Position numbers and translations under genes: made by a program
Notes under the pieces: model-generated
What the model saw: the letters and a program-made list of their open reading frames with translations, nothing else
Told to the model about the DNA's origin: nothing
The model's database searches: none
In this document: one piece after another, positions 411-48,507 of the stretch
How positions within the stretch are numbered: position 1 is the first letter of the stretch
How the letters are laid out: the number at the start of each line of letters is the position of its first letter
Assembly (NCBI GenBank): GCA_958510825.1
Contig: OY294044.1
Span: 68,304,357-68,368,356 of the forward strand
From: Brachypterus glaber
Lineage: Eukaryota; Arthropoda; Insecta; Coleoptera; Kateretidae
Direction of reading: 5' to 3'
DNA: 64,000 nucleotides

Positions 411-1044
411 TGTTGTGTGACGTCGAAAGGTCCCATTCGGTGATATGGGATTGCCTCCGTAACATCGCCTTTATGATATTAATTAAGTGGACTGCGAATA
501 GGTATTAATGATTGAAAAGAATATTAAAGACAAAACGACAGTTCCAATAATATATATGGTAATCTTACCTTAGTTACAGCATTCAGCACGACAGGTCATG
601 ACCGCCATTTCTTCACAGGAGACACCACATAATTGGAAACTGATGTACGCGAATTAAAGTTTGTTTGACCAGTGTAGGTATACACTACTAATTATTTAAA
701 TACATATGTGTATATGGAACTTATTTCTATAGTTTGCAGCCGTAAATATGGTAAATTCTAACGAATGCCCGCGGCGTGGTATATTCGTCAGCTGATTTGA
801 GTATATTTTTATTGACACGCATCGATCGTTCTCGAGTGTCAAATTGCTACTGTCCGGAAGGCAACCTACTCGAACTCACGCGCAGAAAAGCTAGGAGGTT
901 TTCAGCGCGTTACTTACAAAAATACAATCAATTCAAAATAAAATATTATTTTTGAATTATAACTAAGTAAAGAAATTAAATGAAATTATGTATAATAAAA
1001 CCCAAATTAAAAATAAATACAAACACCGAAATGTGGTTGTAACA
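411..1044 (-). repeat. 3' LTR of the BEL element
   Basis: This 634-bp repeat matches 7957-8590 base for base except for four substitutions. It carries AATAAA on the minus strand (808-813), a plausible polyadenylation signal, and a fairly GC-rich middle (about 770-910) that may be the promoter region. Confidence 0.95.
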
Positions 1045-1060
1045 TTACCGCCCACCAAAA
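1045..1060 (-). other. Candidate polypurine tract
   Basis: On the minus strand, GGTGGGCGGTAA directly abuts the start of the 3' LTR. It is the most purine-rich stretch next to the LTR and sits where plus-strand priming would occur. It is short and has one cytosine. Confidence 0.5.
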
Positions 1061-1079
1061 CACACAAAATTAGAGTGTT

Positions 1080-4000
1080 TTAACAACACATAGGTAATAT
1101 ACATAATTTTACTAAGGGCCTCTTTAGGACACCTTGAGCTGTACGGACATTTACTACTCGGATCACACCATCAGCACCTGGAAATAACTCTATTACACGA
1201 CCTATCGACCAACGAAGAGGGGGCTGTAAATCGTTCTTTATCAGCACCATAGAACCAAGTTCTATCGGTTTAGAGGGTTCATTCCATTTAACTCTTTGCT
1301 GTAAAGTACATAAATATTCGGAATGATACCTGGCCCAGTATTCCTGATGCATACGTTGAATGAGCTGCCACCTATTTAGACGATTAAGAGGCAAGTCTTG
1401 TAGATCAGGCTCTGGCGGGGCAGAGAGTGAGTTCAGGGTAAGAAAATGTCCGGGAGTTAAGACCGATAAATCATTTGGGTCAGAGCTAACTGGACAAAGA
1501 GGTCTCGAGTTCAATAAGGCTTCTATTTGAACTAAGAAGGTTGAGAATTCCTCATATGTCAGTCGTTGTAAACCAACTACTCTATAAAAATGAGTTTTTA
1601 CCGACTTAACACCAGATTCAAACAGACCACCAAAATGTGGGGCTGAAGGGGGATTAAATGACCACTTTATCGATTCAGTTTCAGTGGCATGCTGCATCAA
1701 CTCATCTAATTGGCGCGCGGCACCAACAAAATTTGTACCTTGATCAGAGAAAATGTGATTACAGCGTCCACGTCTAGAAATGAAACGACGAAGAGCAGCC
1801 AAAAAGGACTCAGAAGAAAGTGAGGACACCAACTCTAAGTGTATAGCTTTTGTGGTCGAGCACACGAACACACAAATCCAAGCTTTGTAAGTTTTTGCAC
1901 CACGTACTCGTCCCATGCTTATATTGAATGGACCACAATAGTCCACGCCACAGCTTTGGAAAGCTTTCAACTGACTTATCCTAAAGCTCGGTAGGTCACC
2001 CATCCTAGGTTGGATAGTGTTTGGCTTAACCCTAAAGCACTTGTGACACTTTGAAACAACAGATTTTATGGCCCGCTTGGCGGATAATATCCAAAACTGT
2101 TGATTCAATAAAAACTGTAAGGTTTGAATCCCAGGATGCATATGCCTAACATGCATATCCTCGATAATGAGGTAAGTCAATCGATGAGTACGAGGTAATA
2201 ATCCGGGATGTTTACTTTCAAACGGCAGATGTGCATTTTTTAGCCTACCGCCTACTCGTAAAACTCCTTGTGGGTCTATGAAAGGATTTAATTTACGTAA
2301 AGTTTTATTAACCGGCTTTTGTTGCTCGATACGTACAATATCTTCCTTAAAATATTGGTGTTGAACAATTTTAACCAAAGTCATTAAGGACACTTGTAAA
2401 TCATTTGCAACTAAAGCAGTAGTAACCTTTTGATTAGGATTACGTAAATTGAAACCAAAACGAAAAATATATGAGACAACACGTATTAGACGTGATAATC
2501 TAGAATATTTGTTTAATAGGGTATCAATAAATTGATCAGTCTCTATTAAAACTAGGGATATAATCTTGGCCTCATCTGGAGACGTAACGGGTGTAAAACT
2601 ATCCGTATCAAGATCCAGGGAGGTAGACAAGAATTCTGGTCCCGCCCACCATTGGGTACACTGCATAAGCTCGCTGGGAAAAAGCCCACGTGAACCATGG
2701 TCAGCCACGTTGTCCGCAGACTTAACATGATACCAACAATCTGGTGGTACCAAATCTTGGATGTGGCTAACGCGATTTGCGACGAATGTTTTCCAACGAT
2801 GGGGCGGAGCCTTAATCCATGATAAGGCTACCATGGAATCTGACCAAGCATATGTTTTATGAAAAGTAATGCTGTTTTTATAAGTGTTGCGAACAAACTT
2901 TATTAAATTACTTAATAAAACAGCAGCGCACAATTCCAAGCGGGGTATTGATAATTTCTTTAAAGTAGCAACTTTTGACTTTGCACAGATTAAGGAAACT
3001 TCAAACTTTCCATCTGGCAGAGGTTTTCGAAAGAAAATTATAGCACAATAGCCCTTCTCAGAACTGTCACAAAAGCCATGCAATTCTAAACCACTGGCGT
3101 TTTTTATATCAAGGAAACGGGAAATTTTTAAATCTGCTAACATGTGCAATTCAGATTTAAATTGTAACCACTTTGTTACCACTTCATTGGGAAGTGGCTG
3201 GTCCCAATCACAACCTAGTGACCATAAATGCTGTATTAAATGCTTGGCTACAAAGGTTATTGGACTGAGATATCCAAGTGGATCCCAAATACGCGCAATA
3301 TCCGATAGGATAGAACGCTTAGTTGGTGTAGACTCTAAAGCCTTCACCCGAAAAGAGAAAAAATCTGTATGTGGAGTCCATTGAAGTCCCAAAATTTTAA
3401 GATATGAATCTTCTTCAGAATCAAATGATATATGCTGTCGATGATCGACAGGGATATCTTTCAATAAATTTGGAGAATTGCTCGCCCACTTCCTCAATTC
3501 AAACTTTCCTTTTTGTAAAAGTTCAGTTAGCTGAAGACAAAGCACCTGTGCTAGCTCTAGGTTGTCAGCCCCTGAGATAATGTCATCAACAAAGGTATCT
3601 TCTTCTAGAGCTTTTGATGCCATAGGAAAATCTTTACCCTCATCTGTTACTAACTGTTTAATAGTGCGTAATGCTAGAAAGGGAGAGGAAGTATTACCAA
3701 AAGCTACCGTTGTAAGTCGGTATTCTTTTACTGGTTGTTGGGGATGAAATCTCCAAAGCAATCGTTGATAATTTCGGTGCTTCGGATCCATAAGAATTTG
3801 CCTAAACATTTGTTTTATGTCTGCCATTATAACAATAGTATGAAGGCGAAATCTTAATAAAAGGGAAATTATATCAGTTTGTAATTTAGGTCCTGGACAT
3901 AATAAATCATTAAGGGAGTAGCCCTCTGATGTTTTAGCACTGCAATCAAAAACTATGCGTACCTGGGTAGTACTACTATCCGGCCTTAGTACCGCAAAGT

Positions 4001-4214
4001 GCGGAACCGTATAATGCGGTGCAGTGGCCTCACATGGAGGTGCTTCTTCCATGTGCCCAGAATCTAAATATTCCTGAATAATTTTAGAATATGATATTTT
4101 TACGGATTCATCTTGCAAGCATCGTTTTTCTAAAGAGAAAAAACGCTTAAGTGCGTTTGTGCGAGAATCACCCATAAACGTAGGTTCCATTTTTTTGAAT
4201 GGTAGGGCAACCAT
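1080..4214 (-). CDS. pol: BEL/Pao pol: reverse transcriptase, RNase H, integrase
   Basis: This 1044-residue frame is the C-terminal part of the polyprotein. It copies element RNA into DNA and inserts it into the host genome. The reverse transcriptase has its first aspartate at about D132 (MADIKQMF) and the FVDD box at about 208-211. An RNase H-like region follows, with acidic residues near D383, E427, D459 and D505 (NVADHGSRG). The integrase has an H2C2 zinc site (HVRHMH near 688-693, CHKC near 723-726) and a D-D-E set near D758, D824 and E866 (HFGGLFE). The last 100 residues resemble DUF5641. The open frame continues upstream of the first ATG, in the same frame, to the TAA at 4311-4313, so this ATG is probably not a real start. 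No frameshift is seen. The frame ends 36 bases before the LTR. Confidence 0.95.
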   Translation of the reverse strand: MVALPFKKMEPTFMGDSRTNALKRFFSLEKRCLQDESVKISYSKIIQEYLDSGHMEEAPPCEATAPHYTVPHFAVLRPDSSTTQVRIVFDCSAKTSEGYSLNDLLCPGPKLQTDIISLLLRFRLHTIVIMADIKQMFRQILMDPKHRNYQRLLWRFHPQQPVKEYRLTTVAFGNTSSPFLALRTIKQLVTDEGKDFPMASKALEEDTFVDDIISGADNLELAQVLCLQLTELLQKGKFELRKWASNSPNLLKDIPVDHRQHISFDSEEDSYLKILGLQWTPHTDFFSFRVKALESTPTKRSILSDIARIWDPLGYLSPITFVAKHLIQHLWSLGCDWDQPLPNEVVTKWLQFKSELHMLADLKISRFLDIKNASGLELHGFCDSSEKGYCAIIFFRKPLPDGKFEVSLICAKSKVATLKKLSIPRLELCAAVLLSNLIKFVRNTYKNSITFHKTYAWSDSMVALSWIKAPPHRWKTFVANRVSHIQDLVPPDCWYHVKSADNVADHGSRGLFPSELMQCTQWWAGPEFLSTSLDLDTDSFTPVTSPDEAKIISLVLIETDQFIDTLLNKYSRLSRLIRVVSYIFRFGFNLRNPNQKVTTALVANDLQVSLMTLVKIVQHQYFKEDIVRIEQQKPVNKTLRKLNPFIDPQGVLRVGGRLKNAHLPFESKHPGLLPRTHRLTYLIIEDMHVRHMHPGIQTLQFLLNQQFWILSAKRAIKSVVSKCHKCFRVKPNTIQPRMGDLPSFRISQLKAFQSCGVDYCGPFNISMGRVRGAKTYKAWICVFVCSTTKAIHLELVSSLSSESFLAALRRFISRRGRCNHIFSDQGTNFVGAARQLDELMQHATETESIKWSFNPPSAPHFGGLFESGVKSVKTHFYRVVGLQRLTYEEFSTFLVQIEALLNSRPLCPVSSDPNDLSVLTPGHFLTLNSLSAPPEPDLQDLPLNRLNRWQLIQRMHQEYWARYHSEYLCTLQQRVKWNEPSKPIELGSMVLIKNDLQPPLRWSIGRVIELFPGADGVIRVVNVRTAQGVLKRPLVKLCILPMCC

Positions 4215-4310
4215 GTAACGTCCATCGTTTGTTCGTGTACATGATTCAGTATATTGTTGTTCACACCATTTTTCCTCAGGAGTTAATTTTTCCTGTTGAG
4301 GTACCTGCTC

Positions 4311-6251
4311 TTATTCCCAAAAGGACTTTAGATCAAAGGTTTTCATGGATGTGACAAGTGCAAAATTTGTCGGGGAGGGATAGGATATTTTCCCCATTAG
4401 TATATATCCGAAAACTGTCTCAATGGCTACCGGTTGACTCAGATCCCCTGCTACTTTATTGCTGAGCAAAATCTGAGCAAACACCTCCGCCCCCAGTAAA
4501 AGCTCCACGGCTTTTACTTTATTAAATTCGGGATCTGCTAAATTTAGCTGGCGTATGTGATGCCATTGGGTAGTATCGAGTGCGCATGCCGGCAACCGTT
4601 CAGGAAGATTCGGCAGCACAACTGCATCAATATTAAGAATAGGATTCTTAGCTTGAGTGGGCTTTATTACGCATTGAGTAATGCCCTTGGATGTTACCGG
4701 AGAATTAGGATTAATGCCCGTTATGGTCTTATGAAAAGACGAACGGTGTAATCCTAGCCGATTCAAACATCTTTCTGTTATAAATGAACAAGTAGAGCCA
4801 TTATCAATTAAAGCACGTATTAATTGATAGTGCCCACGACCATCCTTTACGTGTACCATAGCAGTAGCCAATAAAATTGGCGCTGGTACTGTCGTTATGG
4901 ATGTAAAAACGTTAGGATCATTAGACTCGACGCTAGAGTCATTATTTCCTACGCAGTTTTGTCCCGATGTACCGGCCGTTTGGACCGATAAGGGAGGGGT
5001 TACGTTATTTTCACCAGAATGTGATAAATTTACTTTAACTGCCTTGTTATTTGGCTTGTCAAAATGTAAAGTGGAATGATGTCGCTTTTTACATATTTTG
5101 CATAAATGAGTAGAATTGCAAAACTTAAAGTTGTGTGAATGGCTAAGACAATTGACACATAACCTATGCTGTTTAGCAATTTCATATCTCTTTTTTGGAG
5201 CTTCTGATAAAAACGACCTACACTGAGAAACATGATGATTTGACTTGCAAACAGGGCAAGATAAAATATCAGTATTTGTCACAAAAGAAGAATTATTATA
5301 TGAATCTAACTTAACATGTTTTGATACTGGCTTTTGAACATTGTTGATTGGTGCTTTTTTAGAAGATAAAGCCTCAACAGTTTCTAAAGCCTTAGCATGT
5401 GCTGTCAAAAACAGTTTTAATTCGTCAAATGTGGGAAAACCATTCTTTTTATTTTGTTCCTCAAACTTAGCACAAAGATTTTTTGGAATACGTTTGAACA
5501 CCATATCTACAAGAATAAAGCTCCACTCGTTTGTTGGAAGACCCAAGGCCCCGAGTGCCGCTAAATTTTCGACAAGAGTATTCAGGAAAATAATCAAGGC
5601 TGATGATGTGTCAGAGATGTTTGGCAGTTGACATATTGCCTGCCAGTGCGTATTAGCCAATAATCGTTTATTGTCATACCTCTGACGCAGCTGATTATAA
5701 GCTACAGAGTAGTTACTTCCCGATAATTGAACACACTTAATAATGCTAAGTGGTTCCGAAGTTAATAATAAATGTAAATGAGAAAATTTTTCAATGTCTG
5801 AGAGTTGGGGATTTGTATGTATAGCAGAATCATACAAATCTATAAAAGTTTGCCAGTCTGGAAATTTTCCGCTAAAAGGTTTTAAATTCAACTTTTGAAG
5901 TTTGACATTTGAAGTCGTAGCATTTGAAGAACTTCCAAATAATTGTACATAAATACCTTGGATCTGCCAAAACATTTCATCAATCACCGTAGCAGCTTCC
6001 TTTTCTTTAGCTATATCCGTTTTTCGGATAGCATCCGTACGTCCAGGATCTGATATGACGAAAGCGAGTATGTCATCAGCCAGCTTATGCCATTGCTTAT
6101 AAGTCACATCCAGCTGTTGATAACAAATTTTAAAATGTTGCTGTTTTGTGATATCTTTTTGAGCGGCCACTGCTGCCTTTTGAACTCGCTTTAGCCTATC
6201 ATATGGCAACTGCCTACGGTTGTCCATAATACAATATTCGTTTAGATCCAT
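4311..6251 (-). CDS. gag: BEL/Pao gag and aspartic protease
   Basis: This 646-residue frame starts at the first ATG after the leader. Residues of about 110-300 resemble the DUF1759 gag region (LKPFSGKFPDWQTFIDLYDS). Cysteine/histidine knuckles for RNA binding follow at about 332-395 (CPVCKSNHHVSQC, CVNC, CKICKKRHH). A retropepsin-like (DUF1758) domain follows with its active-site motif LIDNGST at about 481-487. The middle residue is N where most retropepsins have S or T, and I cannot tell whether that affects activity. The frame stops with TAA directly after KSFWE. The next 33 codons up to the first ATG of pol are open in the same frame, so in a typical BEL element this would be one continuous polyprotein. 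The stop is either a disabling point mutation or a suppressible stop. Confidence 0.93.
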   Translation of the reverse strand: MDLNEYCIMDNRRQLPYDRLKRVQKAAVAAQKDITKQQHFKICYQQLDVTYKQWHKLADDILAFVISDPGRTDAIRKTDIAKEKEAATVIDEMFWQIQGIYVQLFGSSSNATTSNVKLQKLNLKPFSGKFPDWQTFIDLYDSAIHTNPQLSDIEKFSHLHLLLTSEPLSIIKCVQLSGSNYSVAYNQLRQRYDNKRLLANTHWQAICQLPNISDTSSALIIFLNTLVENLAALGALGLPTNEWSFILVDMVFKRIPKNLCAKFEEQNKKNGFPTFDELKLFLTAHAKALETVEALSSKKAPINNVQKPVSKHVKLDSYNNSSFVTNTDILSCPVCKSNHHVSQCRSFLSEAPKKRYEIAKQHRLCVNCLSHSHNFKFCNSTHLCKICKKRHHSTLHFDKPNNKAVKVNLSHSGENNVTPPLSVQTAGTSGQNCVGNNDSSVESNDPNVFTSITTVPAPILLATAMVHVKDGRGHYQLIRALIDNGSTCSFITERCLNRLGLHRSSFHKTITGINPNSPVTSKGITQCVIKPTQAKNPILNIDAVVLPNLPERLPACALDTTQWHHIRQLNLADPEFNKVKAVELLLGAEVFAQILLSNKVAGDLSQPVAIETVFGYILMGKISYPSPTNFALVTSMKTFDLKSFWE

Positions 6252-6429
6252 GGCTTATAAAATTTATTTATTGAAAGGTAAAAGAAAAAAAATAAAAATT
6301 ATAAAAAAAATATAAACTGAATAATTTTAGGAAAATTACACAATTTTTTCTCAAATTTTATTTCTTAGATTGAATTTATTGTAGAAGAAAACCTCCAGAT
6401 ATAATGGCTAAAATATAACTTATACCTCA

Positions 6430-6790
6430 GTAATGAATCACCCTGTAAATATTTTCAACAAAATTCAAAATTCCAAATTATAATCCAAACTATGAGTTAC
6501 CCTGTATATTTGCACAGAGTTTTCCAAAAAACCAAATTCAAAAAATTACAATTTAATTTTTAAGTCACCCTGTATATATTCTGACAGAATATAAAAAAAA
6601 CAAAAACAAAAACTCAAAAGTACAATTTAAGACCCTGTATATATGGACTGGATACTCAAAAAGGCAAAATTCAAAATTACAATTAAGCTTTAGGTTACCC
6701 TGTATGCATATATTTGACAGAATATTAAAAAAATTCAGATTACAATCTAAGTTCAATTCTCCTGTATGAAAACATTTTGAAATGGGCTAA
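6430..6790. repeat. About 65-bp degenerate tandem repeat in the BEL leader
   Basis: Six units are marked by CCCTGTATAT or variants beginning at 6441, 6500, 6568, 6633, 6698 and 6760, so the spacing is 59-68 bp. Between marks, each unit has an A-rich CAAAATTCAAAATTACAAT-like stretch. A further isolated mark is at 7047. The array lies between the 5' LTR and gag. Confidence 0.75.
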
Positions 6791-7640
6791 ATTTATTTTT
6801 AACCTATTCTTTGAAAATTACAATTTTTTTATGTACCGATAGTATTTCCAAAAAATAAAAAAGAAAATAAAATAAAAATTAAAATTATATTTTTAAGTGT
6901 TTTCTACTATTTTTTTAACCTGGTATACACTAAAGGTACAGCTCAAGATTTCCCACTTGCATAACATTCGAAAAGTACAAGAAAAAAATACCTAGATATC
7001 CAATATAAAAAAATAAGTTTTACAAAAGTTCCTAATTTTAAGAACTCCCTGTATAATGGTAAAACTAGAATTTGGACAAGGTATCTTATTTTTGCGCGCA
7101 AAAAAATATATCAAATTAGAAGGAAAAAAATCAAAATATAAAAGTAATTTTGTTTCCACCCTATATGTAACTTTACTAGCAATAGGTAAATTTTAAATCT
7201 ATTACTACTAGATAGGTATTTTAATTATAATATCTTGCTCGCAAATAAGTTCTATCGAATGTAATTAATTATATGGATAAATTTTAATTTATTTTTTTCA
7301 AAGCACAGAAATATTTTTAAGAATCTTTCTACGCCCAAATAAATCACCAGTTTTAAAACAATAATTTTCAAAAGGCAAAGTTAAATAATATTTTTATTTT
7401 AACAATAAACTGTATTTTTGCAAAATAAAATAATAATTGCGGTTTTGACTGTGTCCAAAGAAAAAGGAAAAAAACGCTTGGATACAGCTGATAATTTTTT
7501 GCCTTTTTTATAGAACACAAAGTTTACGATTTTATCGGTTTTTAATTTTTCAACCGAAAAATCCAAAATATATTTTTAAAGCGAATTACCCTATTTGAAA
7601 ATAATTTTTATTCAAAATAAGATTTTACGCGAGATTTTTT

Positions 7641-7785
7641 TGTTAATAAATAAGCTATCTCCGAATGCAACACTCAAATATGATATATTTATTTATAACG
7701 AATAATTTTAATGTTAATAAATAAGCTATCTTCGAATGCTAAATCCAAATATGATATTGTTATTTATAACAAATATGTAATTTTA
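7641..7785. repeat. 71-bp tandem duplication in the BEL leader
   Basis: TGTTAATAAATAAGCTATCT starts at 7641 and again at 7712, and the similarity continues through about 70 bp (CGAATGC, CAAATATGATAT, TTATTTATAAC). Confidence 0.75.
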
Positions 7786-7937
7786 CAACTGCAAAAGAAC
7801 GTTACCACACACACACTGTAAAATTAGCAAAATCTAGGTAAATGAATTTAAAAGCTATGAAGCTATGTTAAATAGTTATACTAGTGCCAAAATTCCGGTT
7901 CAAAACGGACCATGTTATAATGGTTCTGCTAGCTTAA

Positions 7938-7956
7938 ATCCGGTTCGAAAGGGCCA
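7938..7956 (-). other. Candidate primer binding site
   Basis: On the minus strand, TGGCCCTTTCGAACCGG directly follows the 5' LTR and starts with the expected TGG (complement of a tRNA CCA end). Beyond the first bases it does not fit a normal tRNA T-arm geometry, so the primer tRNA is not identified. A second related copy lies 45 bp away (7895-7912). Confidence 0.45.
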
Positions 7957-8590
7957 TGTTGTGTGACGTCGAAAGGTCCCATTCGGTGATATGGGATTGC
8001 ATCCGTAACATCGCCTTTATGATATTAATTAAGTGGACTGCGAATAGGTATTAATGATTGAAAAGAATATTAAAGACAAAACGACAGTTCCAATAATATA
8101 TATGGTAATCTTACCTTAGTTACAGCATTCAGCACGACAGGTCATGACCGCCATTTCTTCACAGGAGACACCACATAATTGGAAACTGATGTACGCGAAT
8201 TAAAGTTTGTTTGACCAGTGTAGGTATACACTACTAATTATTTAAATACATATGTGTATATGGAACTTATTTCTATAGTTTGCAGCCGTAAATATGATAA
8301 ATTCTAACGAATGCCCGCGGCGTGGTATATTCGTCAGCTGATTTGAGTATATTTTTATTGACACGCATCGATCGTTCTCGAGTGTCAAATTGCTACTGTG
8401 CGGAAGGCAACCTACTCGAACTCACGCGCAGAAAAGCTAGGAGGTTTTCAGCGCGTTACTTACAAAAATACAATCAATTCAAAATAAAATATTATTTTTG
8501 AATTATAACTAAGTAAAGAAATTAAATGAAATTATGTATAATAAAACCCAAATTAAAAATAAATACAAACACCGAAATGTGGTTCTAACA
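7957..8590 (-). repeat. 5' LTR of the BEL element
   Basis: This is the partner of 411-1044 and carries the transcription start region for the minus-strand element. AATAAA is at 8354-8359 (minus). Towards its 3' end the minus strand contains AAG|GTAAGA (boundary 8115/8114), a good match to a splice donor, which could remove the repeat-rich leader. Confidence 0.95.
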
Positions 8591-8595
8591 AAAAT

Positions 8596-9230
8596 CTTCT
8601 TTGGCTTTGATTTAATGCTACTTTTTGCAAATTTTCATACTTTTTCAAATAACGGAGATAAGTATATTAAGAAATTGTTGAGATACCCAGTATATTGAAC
8701 GGATGGACCGTTTAGAAAAAAAAATGGTAGGAGTGCTTAAGTACCATAGTGGTACCACTATGCCAAGTTTGGTTAAAATCAGAGACATCGAGGGAAAACC
8801 GAGTATGTTAACGTGAAATATCAAATCAGATTAATCCCTGAAGATGTCTCTAGTAGTAAGAGACGAAACGTCGGAAAGTGAAAATCCATTAACACGGTCT
8901 AAACTCGAAAGTGAAAGTTCTTTATAAATATCAAAGATATTTTCTAAAAAACACATTTTTTTTAAAACGGCTTTAACGATTTTTAAATTTTTGGTCTTAT
9001 TTTTTTAATTAGAGTTCGTATAACAAATTCCAAAAAGAAAAAACAAATGGAAGTTGTCATGTCATTTAAAAGTTCTTCTAGAACACCGTGGAGGTTTAAC
9101 ATAAACAAATGAGATAAGCTATAGCGCATATATTTAATAAAATTATAATTTTATTATAATAAAATCTTTCACATTTAACTTATATTTTTTTTAAATAAAA
9201 ACTTATTTTCAATTCAAAAACTTGGTTTGT
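8596..9230. other. Right flank of the BEL element, no gene
   Basis: AT-rich DNA. It contains a perfect 18-bp palindrome, CATAGTGGTACCACTATG, at 8745-8762, and the retroelement-tail-like hairpin listed separately. Confidence 0.5.
8829..8930 (+). repeat. Retroelement 3'-tail-like hairpin motif
   Basis: CTGAAGAT is followed by a 6-bp stem, GTCTCT/AGAGAC, and then GAAACGTCGG. This resembles the hairpin often seen at ends of Penelope-like and some non-LTR elements, and has pieces of a hammerhead core, but the remaining stems do not form. A diverged relative lies inverted at about 28780-28840. Confidence 0.4.
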
Positions 9231-25056: not shown

Positions 25057-27619
25057 CACTTCTGCTCAAAAATATCGGCCCACCTAAAAAAATACACATT
25101 TTTGAATGCAAATATCTCCAAAACTATTTAATGGATTTATTCGATCTTTTTTTTATTTTGAAGCTTGAACTTTTAGCTCTTACTTACTGGAATAAAAATT
25201 ATCAAACATCTTTTTTTATACCGGCAGCAATGAAAAGTGCACAGCTATGTTTTTTTACTGCACCTTTCGATATGCGCATGGTTCGCCACTGCATATTTTT
25301 TTACAATTTAATTAATTGATTTTATAGCCTAATTAAATGGAAGTAATCTCTTTTTAAATTTTTAAATTTTCCTTTTCTCGTTTAGGAGATATAAGGTTTT
25401 TTCTAAAAATTTACATTTTTGCAAGTAACAAAAAAACTACGCAATGGATTTAATTGATTTTTTTTTTAATTTGAAGCTTAAATCGTAAACTTTTATTTAT
25501 TTAATTTAGGTTTCTGGTGCAAACATGTTTAAACTGAGTTTACATTGCTTAAATAGTCATGTTTTTTTTTACTCGATCTTTTTTGTTGCAATTTAAACAC
25601 AAACTCAAATCTTTCCATAAGTTTTAAAACTTATTCTAATAGCCACACTTATTGTGACTGATTCCGTCTTTTATTTTTTATCATAAGTCTTCTCATTTAG
25701 GAGAAATTATGTTTTTTTGGTAAATAAGGACTTTTTAAGTGGTGGGCTAGTGCCACCCCTGTAACTAACTTTTTTATGATTGACAAGACTTGTCACTTAT
25801 GTGACAATACTTTTTTAACTCGTTAAAATTTTATTTAATTGTATTATTTAAATGGAAACAAGTCCGGAAGTAGCTGCCCAAGCTGTAGCTCTGCTACAAG
25901 AAGGGCACAGTCAGCGTTATGTTGCTCAACAGTTAAATATTACGAGAGCAGCGGTAAGAAGTGTATTCCAACGTTTTGAGGAGACCGGTTCCTTTAGTCG
26001 ACGCCAAGGAGCTGGCAGACATAGGTGCACGTCCGCTCGGGATGACCGATTTATCGAGCTTAATTCCCTGCGGAATCGTCGTCTAAATTCAGTTAATTTG
26101 AGATCACGGCTTCAAGAAACAAGAGGTGTAGCAGTAAGTAGGTCCACTATTGGTCGAAGGCTTTTTGAAAGAAACCTTTGCTCTTATAAGGCCGCAACTG
26201 GACCTAAACTCACTGCTAACCATCGTCGTGCCAGGCTGCAGTTTGCAAGAAGACATTTAAACTGGGACAGAAACCAATGGGCAAAGGTTATGTTTTCTGA
26301 TGAAACCAGGATATGTCTATTTGGGAATGATGCAAGACAGCGTGTCTACCGACGTCCTGGAGAACGTTATGCACAGGCCTGCATTGCAGAAAAAGTTAGT
26401 TATGGTGGTGGATCGTGCATGATATGGGGAGGTATATCATTGGAAGCTAAAACTGAACCCGTAATGTTGGTTAGTTTTAGTGTTTTGTTAAATTAAATTG
26501 AATGTTTTATTGACCATAATGTAATGTAACTAATAATAACGAAGAACAGCATTGTTGTAAAAAAACATACACGTCTAATACGTTTTTTTGTGTTTATAAT
26601 TGTTATTAAATAATTTTAATAAAATTTAAAATTTGTTTATTGTTATTTTATTTGATAAAATATTTTGTTTAAAAAAAATTAAAAAGCAAAAAGTCCTTAA
26701 AAAGACGTTAGAACTTGTTTTTGGAGTACCATTAGAGATTTAAACAGTCTGTGCAAAGTTCGTTCGACATATATGCCTCAAAACGCAGTCTGAGCTGGGA
26801 ACCAAAAAGTTGCTAACGCAGAAAACGTGTTAATTAAATGTATTTATTTAAGCTAAAGTTATAGAAGTGCAATAGATCTTTATATTCTATCGACGCTTTT
26901 CCGTCATATACAGTTTTACAGGGGTGGCACTAGCCCACTGATTAAAAAGTCACTTTTTCCGAAAAACTTTAATTTCTCCTAAATGAGAAGACTTATGATA
27001 AAAAATAAAAGAAGGAATCAGTCACAATAAGTGTGGCTTTTAGAATAAGTTTTAAAACTTATGGAAACATTTGAGTTTGTGGTTAAATTGCATCAAAAAA
27101 GATTGGGTAAAAAAAACATGACTATTTAAGCAATGTAAACCCAGTTTAAACATGTTTGCACCAGAAACTTAAATTAAATAAATAAAAGTTAAGGACTTAA
27201 GCTTCAAATTAAAAAATAAATCAATTAAATCCACTGTGTAGTTTTTTTGTTATTTGCAAAAATGTTTATTTTCAGAAAAAACCGTATATCTCCTAAACGA
27301 GAAAAGGAACATTAAAAAGTTAAAAAAGAAATTACTCCCATTTAATTGGCCTATAAAATCAATTAATTAAATTGTAAAAAAATATGCAGTGGCAAACCGT
27401 GCGCATATCGAAAGAAGCAGTAAAAAAACATAGCTGTGTAATTTTCATTGCTGCCAGTTTAAAAAAAGATTTTTGATAATTTTTATTCCAGTAATTAAGA
27501 GCTAAAAGTTCAAGCTTTAAAATAAAAAAAAGGTCAAATAAATCTATTGAATAGTTTTGGAGTTATTAGCATTTGAAAATGTGTATTTTTTTAGGTGGGC
27601 CGATATTTTTGAGCAGAAG
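25057..27619 (+). mobile_element. Tc1-like transposon with about 700-bp inverted repeats
   Basis: TA lies at both ends (25055-25056, 27620-27621). The terminus CACTTCTGCTCAAAAATATC on the left matches CTTCTGCTCAAAAATATCGG inverted on the right. Similarity of the arms continues inward to about 25763 and 26916 (TTACAGGGGTGGCACTAGCC), so each arm is about 700 bp. The 1.15 kb between them holds the 5' part of a transposase gene (25852-26496) and about 420 bp with no clear second half. The whole is 2563 bp. Confidence 0.9.
25852..26496 (+). pseudogene. Tc1-like transposase, N-terminal part
   Basis: The 214-residue frame begins METSPEVAAQAVALLQEGHS 89 bp inside the left arm. It has two helix-turn-helix DNA-binding units: about residues 5-45 (QRYVAQQLNITRAAVRSVFQ) and about 60-110. 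A basic GRHR-type linker joins them (RRQGAGRHR). The first catalytic aspartate follows in KVMFSDETRICLFG (about D147), then WGGIS at about 192. Homology stops after KTEPVML at about residue 206, and the frame ends VSFSVLLN-stop. Full-length family members run to about 340 residues and need two more acidic catalytic residues, which are absent. A possible decayed tail (frame near 26720-26800) is too weak to claim. The protein is expected to bind DNA but not to cut it. Confidence 0.9.
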
Positions 27620-27621
27620 TA

Positions 27622-30960: not shown

Positions 30961-32455
30961 TTTAAAATAGGGTTGAAAAAAACATATTAATTTTCTGTAC
31001 CTAACTAACTAAAAATATATCAAGGATGGCTGTCAAAATTGCAGGGAAAAATTATAAAGGACAATAGTGTATCATACTAAGCCCACGTATTTTAAATCTA
31101 TCTCCAACACAGAATTAAAGCGTTGTAATCGAGGTTGTATCACAATAGCCCCTTACTGTATCCACGATAGCCCCAAACGTAGGGCTATTTTGGTACAGCA
31201 TTTTGTTGTATTTTTATTGTCAACTATTGTTTTTTGCCCTCAAAACTGGGCAGATAACCCCAAGGCTTACAAGGCATTTTTTGAGATTTTTAAAAATTAT
31301 ATTTATATTTTTTTTTGTAAAAGTTTTAATTTTTGTATCATAATAGCCCCGCCCCAATGGACCCTACTTAAAGTTTTGAAGAAAATCATTTTGACACTAA
31401 AATAATTTTCTCACTAGTGCTAGGGACTAATTCTGCCCTACTACGCTAGAAAGCAGTAACTCCATTTGTCGCATAGCAGCGTTTTCCAAATATTACATCA
31501 GAGTTGACGTGTAAACGTGGCAGAAATACTCAATGTCCGTTTTCATAAAAAATAATAGGGAGCCCCCAGCCTTTATTAGATAGATTACATAGGTAATAAT
31601 GTATTGTTTTAATAATTTAAGGGTTTTTGGATTTTTAGTTTAATTATTTTCTTCGATAGTGATCTTCGTTAACACTAATTTTTAATGATTAACCAGTTTT
31701 ACCCATATACACAACTCTGTTGCTTTAACCGGGATTTTTTCAACAAAGTCCATTTTTGATGCAGGGTGTGGTACACGAAATTAAACTCTGTGGTATATTA
31801 AATTAAAATGACTTTAAATTGTCCGTTTTTGGCTGCGACTCTTCTGTTTTATGTGAATTTTATACTTTCGTGCAGACGCTTAGGGTTGGGTAATTGTTTA
31901 TGTTTTTTAATTTATTGTTACTCTTTGTTACTCCAAACCAGAATAGTAGGGTAAATTAGGCAGTGCCTAATAGGCACACTCATTTTTTATTTATTTTTTA
32001 TTTAAATTCTATTGCGACCTAAGTAATATTTGTGAGGCTCATGACAAAAAATATTCAAATTAAAAAAATCATCTTATACATTTTTGACGTTAGCTGATGG
32101 CCGAATTAACTTTTTGGGAGTTTATCGAGGAGTTTATACTTGTTTTGTACTTCTCCTTGCACAGATCGAAGTACCCGAAAAAATTAAATTAAAAAAAAAA
32201 ACTATTTCTTAATGAATAAACATCTAAAACTATATTTCACTAATGGGTCATGTGACATGACTCATATCAACGCTGTTATTGCAAGGTCACTTGGATCATA
32301 AAAACAGTTTTTGAAAAAAATATATTATTTTTTTCGAAAAAATTATTATTTCTTATTTGATAAAAAAGAAAATTAATATTTTTTTTTTATTATTTTATTT
32401 TTTCAGGACTCGCTAAGCAAAAACAGCGTTGACATGAAAGTCCAGTTGATAAAAT
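30961..32455. other. No gene recognised
   Basis: A 112-residue frame at 31067-31405 has no recognisable domain and unremarkable composition for random AT-rich DNA. Nothing else is supported. Confidence 0.4.
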
Positions 32456-32466
32456 ACAGTTTAAAG
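32456..32466. repeat. 11-bp target duplication (left copy) of the ribozyme element
   Basis: ACAGTTTAAAG here and at 32890-32900 immediately flank the element at 32467-32889. Confidence 0.7.
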
Positions 32467-32889
32467 AAAATAGATTGATGGAATAATAAATTAATATTTT
32501 TATAATTTTGTTTAAAATTAAAAATTTCTGTCCTTACTAATTTTACGTCTAACCACCCGTTAGTGGTACTATGTGCTTGAGACACACAAGTCTTCAACTT
32601 GCTACCATTCAAAGTCTCCAGATTAGGAGAGGTATGAGTAGTTATCTACATCTAGAAATAGATGGCGCACAAGTCTACATCAATCTAATGGCTATATTCC
32701 TTTTGCGAGTAAAGTCTAAAAACGTTTTCTTAATCAGCGTGCAGAGTTGACTCTTGGTACTGAAGAGGGCCAGCAGCCCGAAACTGTCAGTCTACCAATA
32801 TCACTCTGTACGATGATTAGAAAATAGATTGATGGAATAATAAATTAATATTTTTATAATTTTGTTTAAAATTAAAAATTTCTGTCCTT
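32467..32889 (+). mobile_element. Retrozyme-like / Penelope-like element with a hammerhead
   Basis: A 423-bp insertion lies between 11-bp direct repeats. Its first and last 69 bp (32467-32535 and 32821-32889, AAAATAGATTGATGGAATAA onwards) are identical by eye, so it is 1.2 tandem copies of a 354-bp unit. The unit contains a type I hammerhead fold at 32739-32811. It has no TG...CA termini and no coding sequence. Tandem units with one ribozyme per unit, a long target duplication and no frame are known for animal retrozymes and for pseudo-LTR fragments of Penelope-like elements. The assignment is inferred from structure alone. Confidence 0.7.
32739..32811 (+). ncRNA. Type I hammerhead self-cleaving ribozyme candidate
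   Basis: All core parts are present in order. Stem I is TTGGTA (32754-32759) with TACCAA (32793-32798). It extends across an internal loop by GTGCAGAGT (32739-32747) with ACTCTGTAC (32803-32811), one mismatch. The conserved box is CTGAAGA (32760-32766, fitting CUGANGA). Stem II is GGGC/GCCC with loop CAGCA. GAA follows at 32780-32782. Stem III is a short ACT/AGT closed by GTC. C at 32792 is the cleavage-site base in a GUC triplet. An internal loop in stem I opposite loop II is the arrangement that supports tertiary contacts in natural hammerheads. Cleavage would fall between 32792 and 32793. Confidence 0.75.
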
Positions 32890-32900
32890 ACAGTTTAAAG

Positions 32901-36611: not shown

Positions 36612-36900
36612 AGGTAATGGGTAACATAGCGTAGTGGCTAGCGCGTGCACATAGGAAGCATACTAGCGTGAGTTCGATTCTCACTGGCGCCGATTTGCCT
36701 TTTTCAGTTAATTAATAATTGAAATTTGGCGAAGGCGATAAGTGAAACGGACACTCCCTATAAACTGGTTCGAAAGTCAGTATAAGCCGGTGGTTCCCTC
36801 TATTACTAACCCACACAAGTCCTGGACTTAGGGATCCTTAATTAAGTAGAACAGTACGAGGTTAAACAAACATGACAAACATGACAAAACATGAATACCA
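36612..36900 (+). mobile_element. tRNA-derived SINE
   Basis: The head has an RNA polymerase III A box, TAGCGTAGTGGC (36627-36638), and B box, GAGTTCGATTCTC (36670-36682), with a closing T-stem (GTGAG/CTCAC). The acceptor strands do not pair, so it is not an intact tRNA gene. A body of about 160 bp (CGGACACTCCCTATAAACTG, AGTCCTGGACTTAGGGATCC) follows, and then a tail of CATGACAAA repeats (about 36870-36893). Confidence 0.65.
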
Positions 36901-45890: not shown

Positions 45891-46218
45891 TTGAATCCCT
45901 GCAATATACAACATTTGTCTGAATCCCTGCAATATGTAACTTTTTTTTTTTTGTAAATATACAACTTTTGTTTTAAAATATACAACTTTTTAAGATTTTT
46001 TGAAATCCATAAAATATAAAACTTTTGTTGGATCAATACAACTTTTCAAGTAGGCTGGGGGGACGCTCCCCCCCCCACATCCCCCCATAGCTACGGCCCT
46101 GACGTCAGTCCAACTAGCTGTAAATTTCATTTTATTGCTACATGTAGCCCAAGAGATCTCTTGAAAATTAAATTATTTTCGATACCATGGACTTTTTTTT
46201 TTTTTTTTTGTAAATATA

Positions 46219-47121
46219 GAGGAAATGCGCCTAATTTCGGATGGTTTCCAAATTTCGGATAGTAGTGTATTTAAGATACTGTCTGCAAAGGTAAACAGAA
46301 ACCTACTTTTATGTGAAGCCAAAAGTCAAACTAAATCCGTCCTGTAATATGATAACGGTAGAGCTTCTCCCCTTTAAATGGCAGCACAAATCGTTTATAT
46401 TGCAAATGGCAGTTTTGTGCTCAGTTGCATTATTATGCTTGTTTATTTTATAAATAATCGTTATAAAAGTTCGTGATTCTGTCTTGGGTAAGTTATGATG
46501 TTAGTTAAGTTGATCCACTATTCATCATTAAGCAATTTGAAAACGTAAACATTCTACAAATTTCTAATCTAAAAAGCAGAAAGTTGTCTAATTTCGGATA
46601 GACCATTTTTGTGCATTTGATTCCCAATTTCGGATATCCGCAAGGTAATTATTATTCAGGATAACCAACCATTAATTATTATTTTTATAATGATACAACA
46701 AACTAAGATAAACAATTTTGAAAAAACGAAAATTACCTAAGATACTAAGATCTTCGAAATTGGGAATCTAAAATTATAGTTCCTATAGTATTTCGTAGAA
46801 AATCGCTTAATGATTAAATTACTTTTTAAATGTGAAGGAATAACAGGAAACATAAGCAATGGGATCCAGATCTACTATTGAAAAAATTTTTTCGGATATG
46901 TCCGAAATTAGGAGCCCTTTTTCAAATGCACAAAAATGCGCTGATTTTTTTTAACCGTGTTTTTTGGAAAAAATAAACTGTAATAAAATTGCTTTTATAA
47001 TAAATCATGGTTCGCTATAATAAGTTGTATCTGGTTATATAAAAAAAATATCAAAAAGTAATACCGAGTATTAAATATTGAATACATTGTAAATGGTATC
47101 CGAAATTAGGCGACTTTCCTC
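46219..47121. mobile_element. TA-flanked MITE B, copy 1 (CGGAT-rich)
   Basis: The ends GAGGAAATGCGCCTAATTTC and GAAATTAGGCGACTTTCCTC are inverted repeats between TA dinucleotides (46217-46218, 47122-47123). AATTTCGGAT or its inverse recurs at least seven times in the 903 bp. The uninterrupted host words GTAAATATACAACTTTTG at 45953-45970 show the empty site. Confidence 0.8.
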
Positions 47122-47371
47122 TACAACTTTTGTTTTAAAATATACAACTTTTTAAGATTTTTTGAAATCCATAAAATATAAAACTTTTGTTGGATCAATA
47201 CAACTTTTCAAGTAGGCTGGGGGACGCTCCCCCCCCACATCCCCCCATAGCTACGGCCCTGACGTCAGTCCAACTAGCTGGAAATTTCATTTTATTGCTA
47301 CATGTAGCCCAAGAGATCTCTTGAAAATTAAATTATTTTCGATACCATGGACTTTTTTTTTTGTAAATATA

Positions 47372-48274
47372 GAGGAAATGCGCCTAATTTCGGATGGTTT
47401 CCAAATTTCGGATAGTAGTGTATTTAAGATACTGTCTGCAAAGGTAAACAGAAACCTACTTTTATGTGAAGCCAAAAGTCAAACTAAATCCGTCCTGTAA
47501 TATGATAACGGTAGAGCTTCTCCCCTTTAAATGGCAGCACATATCGTTTATATTGCAAATGGCAGTTTTGTGCTCAGTTGCATTATTATGCTTGTTTATT
47601 TTATAAATAATCGTTATAAAAGTTCGTGATTCTGTCTTGGGTAAGTTATGATGTTAGTTAAGTTGATCCACTATTCATAATTAAGCAATTTGAAAACGTA
47701 AACATTCTACAAATTTCTAATCTAAAAAGCAGAAAGTTGTCTAATTTCGGATAGACCATTTTTGTGCATTTGATTCCCAATTTCGGATATCCGCAAGGTA
47801 ATTATTATTCAGGATAACCAACCATTAATTATTATTTTTATAATGATACAACAAACTAAGATAAACAATTTTGAAAAAACGAAAATTACCTAAGATACTA
47901 AGATCTTCGAAATTGGGAATCTAAAATTATAGTTCCTATAGTATTTCGTAGAAAATCGCTTAATGATTAAATTACGTCTTAAATGTGAAGGAATAACAGG
48001 AAACATAAGCAATGGGATCCAGATCTACTCTTGAAAATTTTTTTTCGGATATGTCCGAAATTAGGAGCCCTTTTTCAAATGCACAAAAATGCGCTGATTT
48101 TTTTTAACCGTGTTTTTTGGAAAAAATAAACTGTAATAAAATTGCTTTTATAATAAATCATGGTTCGCTATAATAAGTTGTATCTGGTTATATAAAAAAT
48201 ATATCAAAAAGTAATACCGAGTATTAAATATTGAATACATTGTAAATGGTATCCGAAATTAGGCGACTTTCCTC
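47372..48274. mobile_element. TA-flanked MITE B, copy 2
   Basis: Nearly identical to 46219-47121 and also 903 bp. It arose by the tandem amplification rather than by a separate insertion, because the flanking A segments are shared. Confidence 0.8.
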
Positions 48275-48507
48275 TACAACTTTTGTTTTAAAATATACAA
48301 CTTTTTAAGATTTTTTGAAATCCATAAAATATAAAACTTTTGTTGGATCAATACAACTTTTCAAGTAGGCTGGGGGACGCTCCCCCCCCACATCCCCCCA
48401 TAGCTACGGCCCTGACGTCAGTCCAACTAGCTGTAAATTTCATTTTATTGCTACATGTAGCCCAAGAGATCTCTTGAAAATTAAATTATTTTCGATACCA
48501 TGGACTT

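Follow-up and report, generated by a model that had tools for sequence, protein, structure and literature searches.

The window analysed here is a 64,000-nt stretch of contig OY294044.1 of the beetle Brachypterus glaber. At 32465-32891 it contains an insertion in which a 354-bp unit is present 1.21 times and which is enclosed by a 12-bp target-site duplication (TSD). Unit positions are written u1-u354, and one passage through the unit is called a lap. The features of the insertion, all on the plus strand, are as follows.

32455-32466 (+): left TSD copy, TACAGTTTAAAG, found by a scripted repeat search; its last 2 bases may equally belong to the element
32465-32891 (+): retrozyme insertion, 1.21 laps of the 354-bp unit, with u1 at 32465
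32465-32818 (+): one complete 354-bp unit, u1-u354 (repeat search, sequence)
32465-32537 (+): left-hand 73-bp terminal direct repeat, u1-u73 (repeat search, sequence)
32488-32502 and again 32842-32856 (+): start site B region, u24-u38, AAATTAATATTTTTA, read through in the window copy
32535-32538 (+): start site A, u71-u74, read through inside the element (..CCTTACTAAT..)
32739-32811 (+): type I hammerhead, u275-u347 (descriptor scan; sub-threshold RAGATH-1-hammerhead match at 32731-32797)
32760-32766 (+): core strand CTGAAGA, C3-A9 (sequence)
32767-32779 (+): stem-loop II, GGGC-CAGCA-GCCC (descriptor scan)
32780-32782 (+): core GAA, G12 A13 A14 (sequence)
32783-32791 (+): minimal stem-loop III, ACT-GTC-AGT (descriptor scan)
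32792-32793 (+): predicted self-cleavage site, after C17 (32792) and before T1.1 (32793)
32819-32891 (+): right-hand 73-bp terminal direct repeat, again u1-u73, with 100% identity to the left-hand one
32889-32891 (+): start site A as the right end of the insertion, CCTTAC followed by target AGTTTAAAG
32889-32900 (+): right TSD copy, TACAGTTTAAAG, found by a scripted repeat search; its first 3 bases may equally belong to the element

The 73-bp terminal repeats are accounted for by the laps of the unit. The original prediction had described 11-bp direct repeats around a 354-bp unit present 1.2 times, with 69 bp of identical termini. The period of 354 bp was borne out, the identical termini measured 73 bp at the widest count (100% identity), and the flanking repeats were present with a length of 12 bp instead of 11. 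The values of 69 and 11 arose because the terminal repeat and the target repeat overlap by 2-3 bases on each side. The window copy consists of a single arm whose right end lies at start site A, and its left side carries no inverted arm; other members of the family have the outer end of an opposite arm at start site B. The GC content of the insertion (32467-32888) is 32%, and no reading frame of at least 110 codons overlapping it was found. Elsewhere in the window, the best match to the unit among those listed covered 30 bases with an E value of 0.004. The window copy differed from the per-position majority of 40 copies at only 1 of 354 positions and is therefore young.

Several other elements were observed in the window. 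A BEL/Pao LTR retrotransposon at 411-8590 has 634-bp LTRs (411-1044 and 7957-8590) that are 99.4% identical, and encodes Pao peptidase, integrase zinc-binding, DUF5641, and DUF1759 domains on the minus strand. At 25058-27620, a Tc1-like transposase frame (25852-26496) lies between 0.7-kb inverted repeats that are 91.8% alike. An Rfam tRNA match at 36620-36692 (33.3 bits, gathering threshold 29), called tRNA-Pro (agg) by ARAGORN, could be a tRNA-derived SINE. A second partial tandem was present at 45960-48507, with a unit of about 1162 bp repeated about 2.2 times at 98.6% identity; it gave no match to the ribozyme descriptor, and no 7-bp word was common to the flank stretches compared.

Every part of the type I hammerhead named in the original prediction was present at 32739-32811. 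The distal stem I (GTGCAGAGT/ACTCTGTAC) has 9 pairs including one G-U, the internal loop of stem I is TGACTC/TATC, and the proximal stem I (TTGGTA/TACCAA) has 6 pairs. The predicted cut between 32792 and 32793 follows from hammerhead rules and their usual numbering. A descriptor looser than this fold, requiring only 4 bp of stem I, had a single match in the window. On one strand of 1.468 billion simulated bases with matching dinucleotide composition it had 8, which gives a chance expectation of about 7e-4 per window on both strands. On these sequence features, the predicted ribozyme is a canonical type I hammerhead with a stem I internal loop.

The covariance-model check suggested for this assignment had a divided outcome. 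No hammerhead reached the gathering threshold in the Rfam search, and none was among the 5 matches listed in an evalue search with 561 bases. The corresponding search with 91 bases listed 3 matches with RAGATH-1-hammerhead (RF03152) in first place, scoring 21.3 bits with E 0.068. The gathering score is 56.3, so that by Rfam's rule the sequence is not a member of that family; the match nevertheless aligned with the ribozyme core and the predicted cut site in register. Since the best sub-threshold match was an in-register hammerhead and the core was retained in 100 of 113 complete laps from 40 copies (all 22 pairs in 81 of 113), we do not regard the absence of a gathering-level match as decisive, although at that threshold it formally amounts to one of the refuting outcomes named with the original prediction. 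The retention of the core is in turn no evidence of selection, because the copies are young and differences are just slightly rarer in the core (1.19%) than outside it (1.58%); purifying selection is hardly visible. The nearest-neighbour minimum-energy fold (-28.3 kcal/mol) differed from the catalytic fold (-20.2 kcal/mol), and the unit folded as a circle was stabler than 200 of 200 shuffled sequences (z -5.2). An exact 25-base ribozyme pattern had 0 matches in IMG/VR. A variant of the ribozyme was observed in a subfamily at C1:39292976, 49623464, and 52171907, in which a one-base deletion turns stem-loop III into ACTGCAGT and a C to T change in stem I turns a G-C pair into G-U; at C1:52171907 this subfamily gave at least 6 successive matches.

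The insertion was used as a query against the beetle's own genome (648 Mb), giving at least 44 matches, with 40 of 310 candidates scored. The matches listed were the window copy, 39 further copies that were 95-100% identical, and 4 inverted fragments of short length. A pair of ribozyme cores spaced by one unit, searched as an exact pattern, had 994 matches in the genome and the reversed-pattern control had 0, and the exact 16-mer ending in CCTTACA occurred 163 times. The tandem copies expected in the host assembly were thus found, and insertions of 1.2 laps, of several laps, and of more than 14 laps occur elsewhere in the genome, many of them with TSDs. These insertions support the earlier proposal that the locus derives from a circular or multimeric ribozyme RNA, and the suspicion of an undescribed insect family was likewise upheld, the family being a new beetle family of animal non-LTR retrozymes. 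During the genome searches, contig G000:C223 was seen to carry COX1 about every 21.9 kb, probably as a mitochondrial genome assembled in tandem. This COX1 was 95-96% identical to its top named matches, which were beetles throughout and included several longhorns.

We are nearly certain that the locus is a recent copy of a non-autonomous non-LTR animal retrozyme family in this beetle. The family is new, and its sequence features make a good case for retrozyme membership. According to the sections of PMC7229834 drawn on here, animal non-LTR retrozymes, whose hosts include insects, have a canonical type I hammerhead with an internal loop in stem I and a short stem III, units of 150-450 bp (354 bp in the beetle) with a GC content below 50% (32% in the beetle), tandem dimers to multimers, TSDs longer than 4 bp, and no frame of 110 codons or more. 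All of these traits are shared by the beetle family, and matching traits also appear in part of PMC7761336. Plant LTR retrozymes, as outlined in portions of the same two papers, are likewise non-autonomous and ribozyme-bearing and are thought to move via circular RNA, but they differ in having LTRs and a type III hammerhead, a unit length of about 700 nt, and a TSD of 4 bp.

The ends of the insertions were compared at 52 sites annotated against the unit, namely 39 other copies from the genome search, 12 sites from the dimer pattern, and the window copy. Statistics on ends and TSDs were based on 49 of these. L049, whose right end lies beyond the stretch examined, L058, which is split by a passenger and has a left piece ending at u324 and a right end at u72, and L013, with a left piece at u257-231 and a right end at u78, were left out; including L013 and L058 would add two breakers of the end rule described below, and a 13-bp apparent TSD of L058 is internal and spurious and was not counted. 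The queries required more than one lap. Copy ends are BLAST ends, some bases of which are uncertain where the target matches, above all at the right end of L062.

The right end fell at u71-81 in 37 of the 49 copies and at u24-38 in the other 12. An inverted left piece was present in 42 of 49 copies, and the window copy is among those without it. Thirty of the 42 two-armed copies had the right end at u73 and the left end at u28, nine had the reverse arrangement, three had another left end, and none had the same site at both ends. The two arms accordingly ended at opposite sites in 39 of 42 copies (Fisher P 4.7e-9 on the 39). Part of the agreement in end points stems from query bias: the query extended one base into the target beyond the right end, which gave an advantage to copies reading CCTTAC and then A. 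The 12 dimer-pattern sites, which are the first places on contig C1 and are unbiased with respect to ends, had 6 right ends in each class (u71-u78 and u24-u38), and 9 of 12 followed the two-site rule. An apparent preference for A after CCTTAC was dropped as query-biased, given that these unbiased sites use both ends equally. A random partial lap on a circle was also rejected as the origin of the 1.2 laps in the window, since other copies share the same end points: the right end of the window copy is not arbitrary and corresponds to a start site common to many copies.

A flanking word of at least 11 bp was shared by the two sides in 31 of 49 copies, 25 of which had words of 12-13 bp, compared with 4 of 2352 mismatched left-right flank pairs. 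The TSDs look AT-rich; the window itself has 31% GC. At 43 arm junctions, the overlap was 1-6 bp in 31, 21-23 bp in 3, and none in 9. The main arm measured 1.15-5.6 laps in the 49 copies, which were chosen for more than one lap, and over 14 laps in L049. Inner arm ends fell within u275-347, the ribozyme, in 19 of 49 and 18 of 42 cases against expected values of 10.1 and 8.7, a clustering that may owe something both to the self-complementary stem I and to the choice of copies longer than one lap.

These junctions bear on how the family spreads. Tandem laps and arrays would also be produced if the unit were a satellite propagated by unequal exchange or by extrachromosomal circles of DNA, the ribozyme being incidental. 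The dispersed insertions with TSDs, the two preferred outer ends, and the inverted arm are, however, marks of retrotransposition, and a chance expectation of only about 7e-4 per window for the descriptor argues against an incidental ribozyme; we therefore consider a satellite origin very improbable. Ordinary target-primed reverse transcription by a LINE, with occasional 5' inversion by twin priming as in L1, is a further alternative; LINEs too yield TSDs of 12-13 bp and arms joined head to head. The printed right ends, however, have no poly-A or simple 3' tail, and the start sites are internal, at u73 or u28. The second arm starts from the second site in 39 of the 42 two-armed copies and never from the same site twice, and we know of no fixed second site in LINE twin priming. 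A LINE mechanism is thus unlikely, and its backing would be a LINE family that ends in ..TCTGTCCTTAC or starts at a similar pair of sites. Snap-back of a single cDNA was considered for the inverted arm as well; it poorly explains an outer end at the second site and the swapping of the sites between sides.

The same anatomy resembles that left by Penelope-like elements. According to the parts of PMC11167929 consulted, these elements begin reverse transcription at two adjacent internal RNA sites that lack homology to the target; cutting and extension affect both DNA strands, the targets used are AT-rich, and the sequence between the two start sites forms the 'tail' seen in genomic copies. Rotifer Penelope-like elements have inverted 5' repeats, partial tandems, TSDs, and an optional tail, as described in excerpts of PMC3846280. 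Two internal start sites 30-45 nt apart, extension of both target strands, an inverted 5' arm, partial tandems, and a TSD are therefore held in common with the beetle retrozyme (PMC11167929, PMC3846280, each in the portions cited). There are also differences: the beetle retrozyme has no reverse transcriptase or endonuclease, its hammerhead is canonical and theirs is the minimal form, and its TSDs are mostly 12-13 bp compared with 8-9 bp in the rotifer examples given in part of PMC3846280. The beetle retrozyme is, judged by its sequence, not itself a Penelope-like element. Passages of PMC7229834 name Penelope-like elements as no more than a strong candidate mobiliser of animal retrozymes and propose that they complete retrozyme mobilisation, with no junction evidence in those passages.

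Candidate mobilisers are present in the beetle genome. At least 31 GIY-YIG matches were obtained with 150 of 419 candidates scored, and one locus, L086, has RVT_1 (7.7e-10) and GIY-YIG (1.3e-5) in a single open frame of 716 aa. The L086 protein gave no tblastn match to the window at E 0.01. In a relative, L082, an inverted left arm starts from one site and the right end lies about 28 nt further on, with a direct repeat of about 17 bp in the flanks as read from the printed ends; the retrozyme-like geometry in a Penelope-like family is represented by this one copy. The start sequences were compared for the L086/L082 family among the resident Penelope-like elements, and this element shares with the retrozyme start region no convincing sequence beyond a short AT-rich word at one start site, AAATTAATA, possibly by chance. 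A separate motif was observed on the plus strand of the window at 8828-8922, shortly after the BEL/Pao element, in a segment that resembles, at 88% and 83%, a pair of copies in opposed orientation near the L082 Penelope-like element. The motif, which begins at 8838 (CTGAAGATGTCTC..GAGACGAAACGTC), is a minimal hammerhead-like form in which a palindromic ACGT replaces stem III, and we take it to be of the kind found in Penelope-like elements.

The ends of the copies suggest that a Penelope-like protein probably inserts the retrozyme. A more specific proposal, towards which we incline only slightly, is that animal retrozymes are short parasites of Penelope-like elements: a ribozyme circle of 354 nt would take up the protein at two fixed sites, each cut target strand would be extended from its own site, and rolling-circle reverse transcription from both DNA ends would yield foldback multi-lap insertions.

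The laps within each copy provide information on the RNA template. At 10 polymorphic sites in 40 copies, laps of the same copy agreed at a level of 0.986, compared with a mean of 0.767 and a maximum of 0.808 after shuffling. Between arms, 11 of 16 informative sites agreed and 5 of 16 differed. Such lap and arm agreement is the expectation if one circle was read repeatedly. In 14 of 41 copy-by-site cases with a minority variant, the laps were mixed, and L048 and L054 contained laps of two kinds with no strict alternation; mixed laps are as compatible with a linear multimer, with switching between circles, or with subsequent conversion as they are with a single circle. In L058, a 175-nt passenger occurs twice in element orientation (4226-4400 and 5122-5296, 896 bases apart), and the resulting superunit of about two laps plus the passenger could come from two readings of a larger circle or from a local duplication.

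The main arms cross the ribozyme cut site, which means that the template of the sampled copies was closed again or never cut, the crossing in every sampled main arm being partly due to the selection for more than one lap. A linear ribozyme-cut monomer was set aside as the template of the sampled copies, each of which has a main arm of more than one lap; short insertions from cut monomers fall outside a sample whose queries chose more than one lap. The same retrozyme family might be copied from an uncut linear multimer transcribed from tandem arrays, with the ribozyme unneeded for insertion. Tandem arrays are common in the beetle genome, the unlike laps of L048 and L054 would fit such a template, and a section of PMC11167929 reports that ribozyme mutants of an Anolis Penelope-like element do not affect insertion in vitro and suggests unprocessed RNA as the dominant substrate. 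Against this, the agreement of laps inside copies lies far above the shuffled level, the more than 14 laps of L049 would need a very long uncut transcript of a sequence whose core is kept by most laps in the 40 copies (100 of 113), and the superunit of L058 resembles a circle read twice, although a local duplication would look alike. We therefore consider an uncut linear multimer possible but rather doubtful, and the sequences of the copies lead us to favour circles as the template with some reservation.

A life cycle that would join these observations can be proposed. Tandem genomic copies would be transcribed, the type I hammerhead in each unit would cut the transcript into 354-nt units, and a host RNA ligase would close the units into circles. 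A Penelope-like protein with reverse transcriptase and GIY-YIG endonuclease would then bind the RNA and cut DNA with a stagger of about 12 nt. The copies themselves read as two arms, both antisense copies of the same RNA strand, with one start site for each target strand; the start sites, u71-74 and u24-38, lie inside the unit about 45 nt apart, and arm length varies from 26 nt to more than 14 laps of the unit. The two arms meet head to head, in most cases overlapping by 1-6 bp, and repair of the stagger would give the TSD. The window copy has a single arm of 1.2 laps starting from u73, with no second arm. Because it holds a single ribozyme, its transcript could be cut only once and would release no unit circle; multi-lap copies could release such circles. 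We judge this life cycle as a whole, including insertion by a Penelope-like protein, to be likely.

What is new for retrozymes is the insertion anatomy, with its two start sites and opposite arms. No description of a two-site, two-arm anatomy for retrozymes was found in the open-access literature, including the sections of PMC7229834 consulted, in which the start-site pair and the inverted second arm that mark the beetle family are not described. The locus is real and ordinary in kind, and it is young and unusually informative, as the copies record their own insertion. Which enzyme moves animal retrozymes becomes a directly testable question through the junctions of the many young copies in one genome. 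If the proposed mechanism is true, retrozymes already published from mussel, coral, and axolotl should show the same signature, and the beetle family would offer a small template for work on the way a telomerase-like reverse transcriptase uses a circle.
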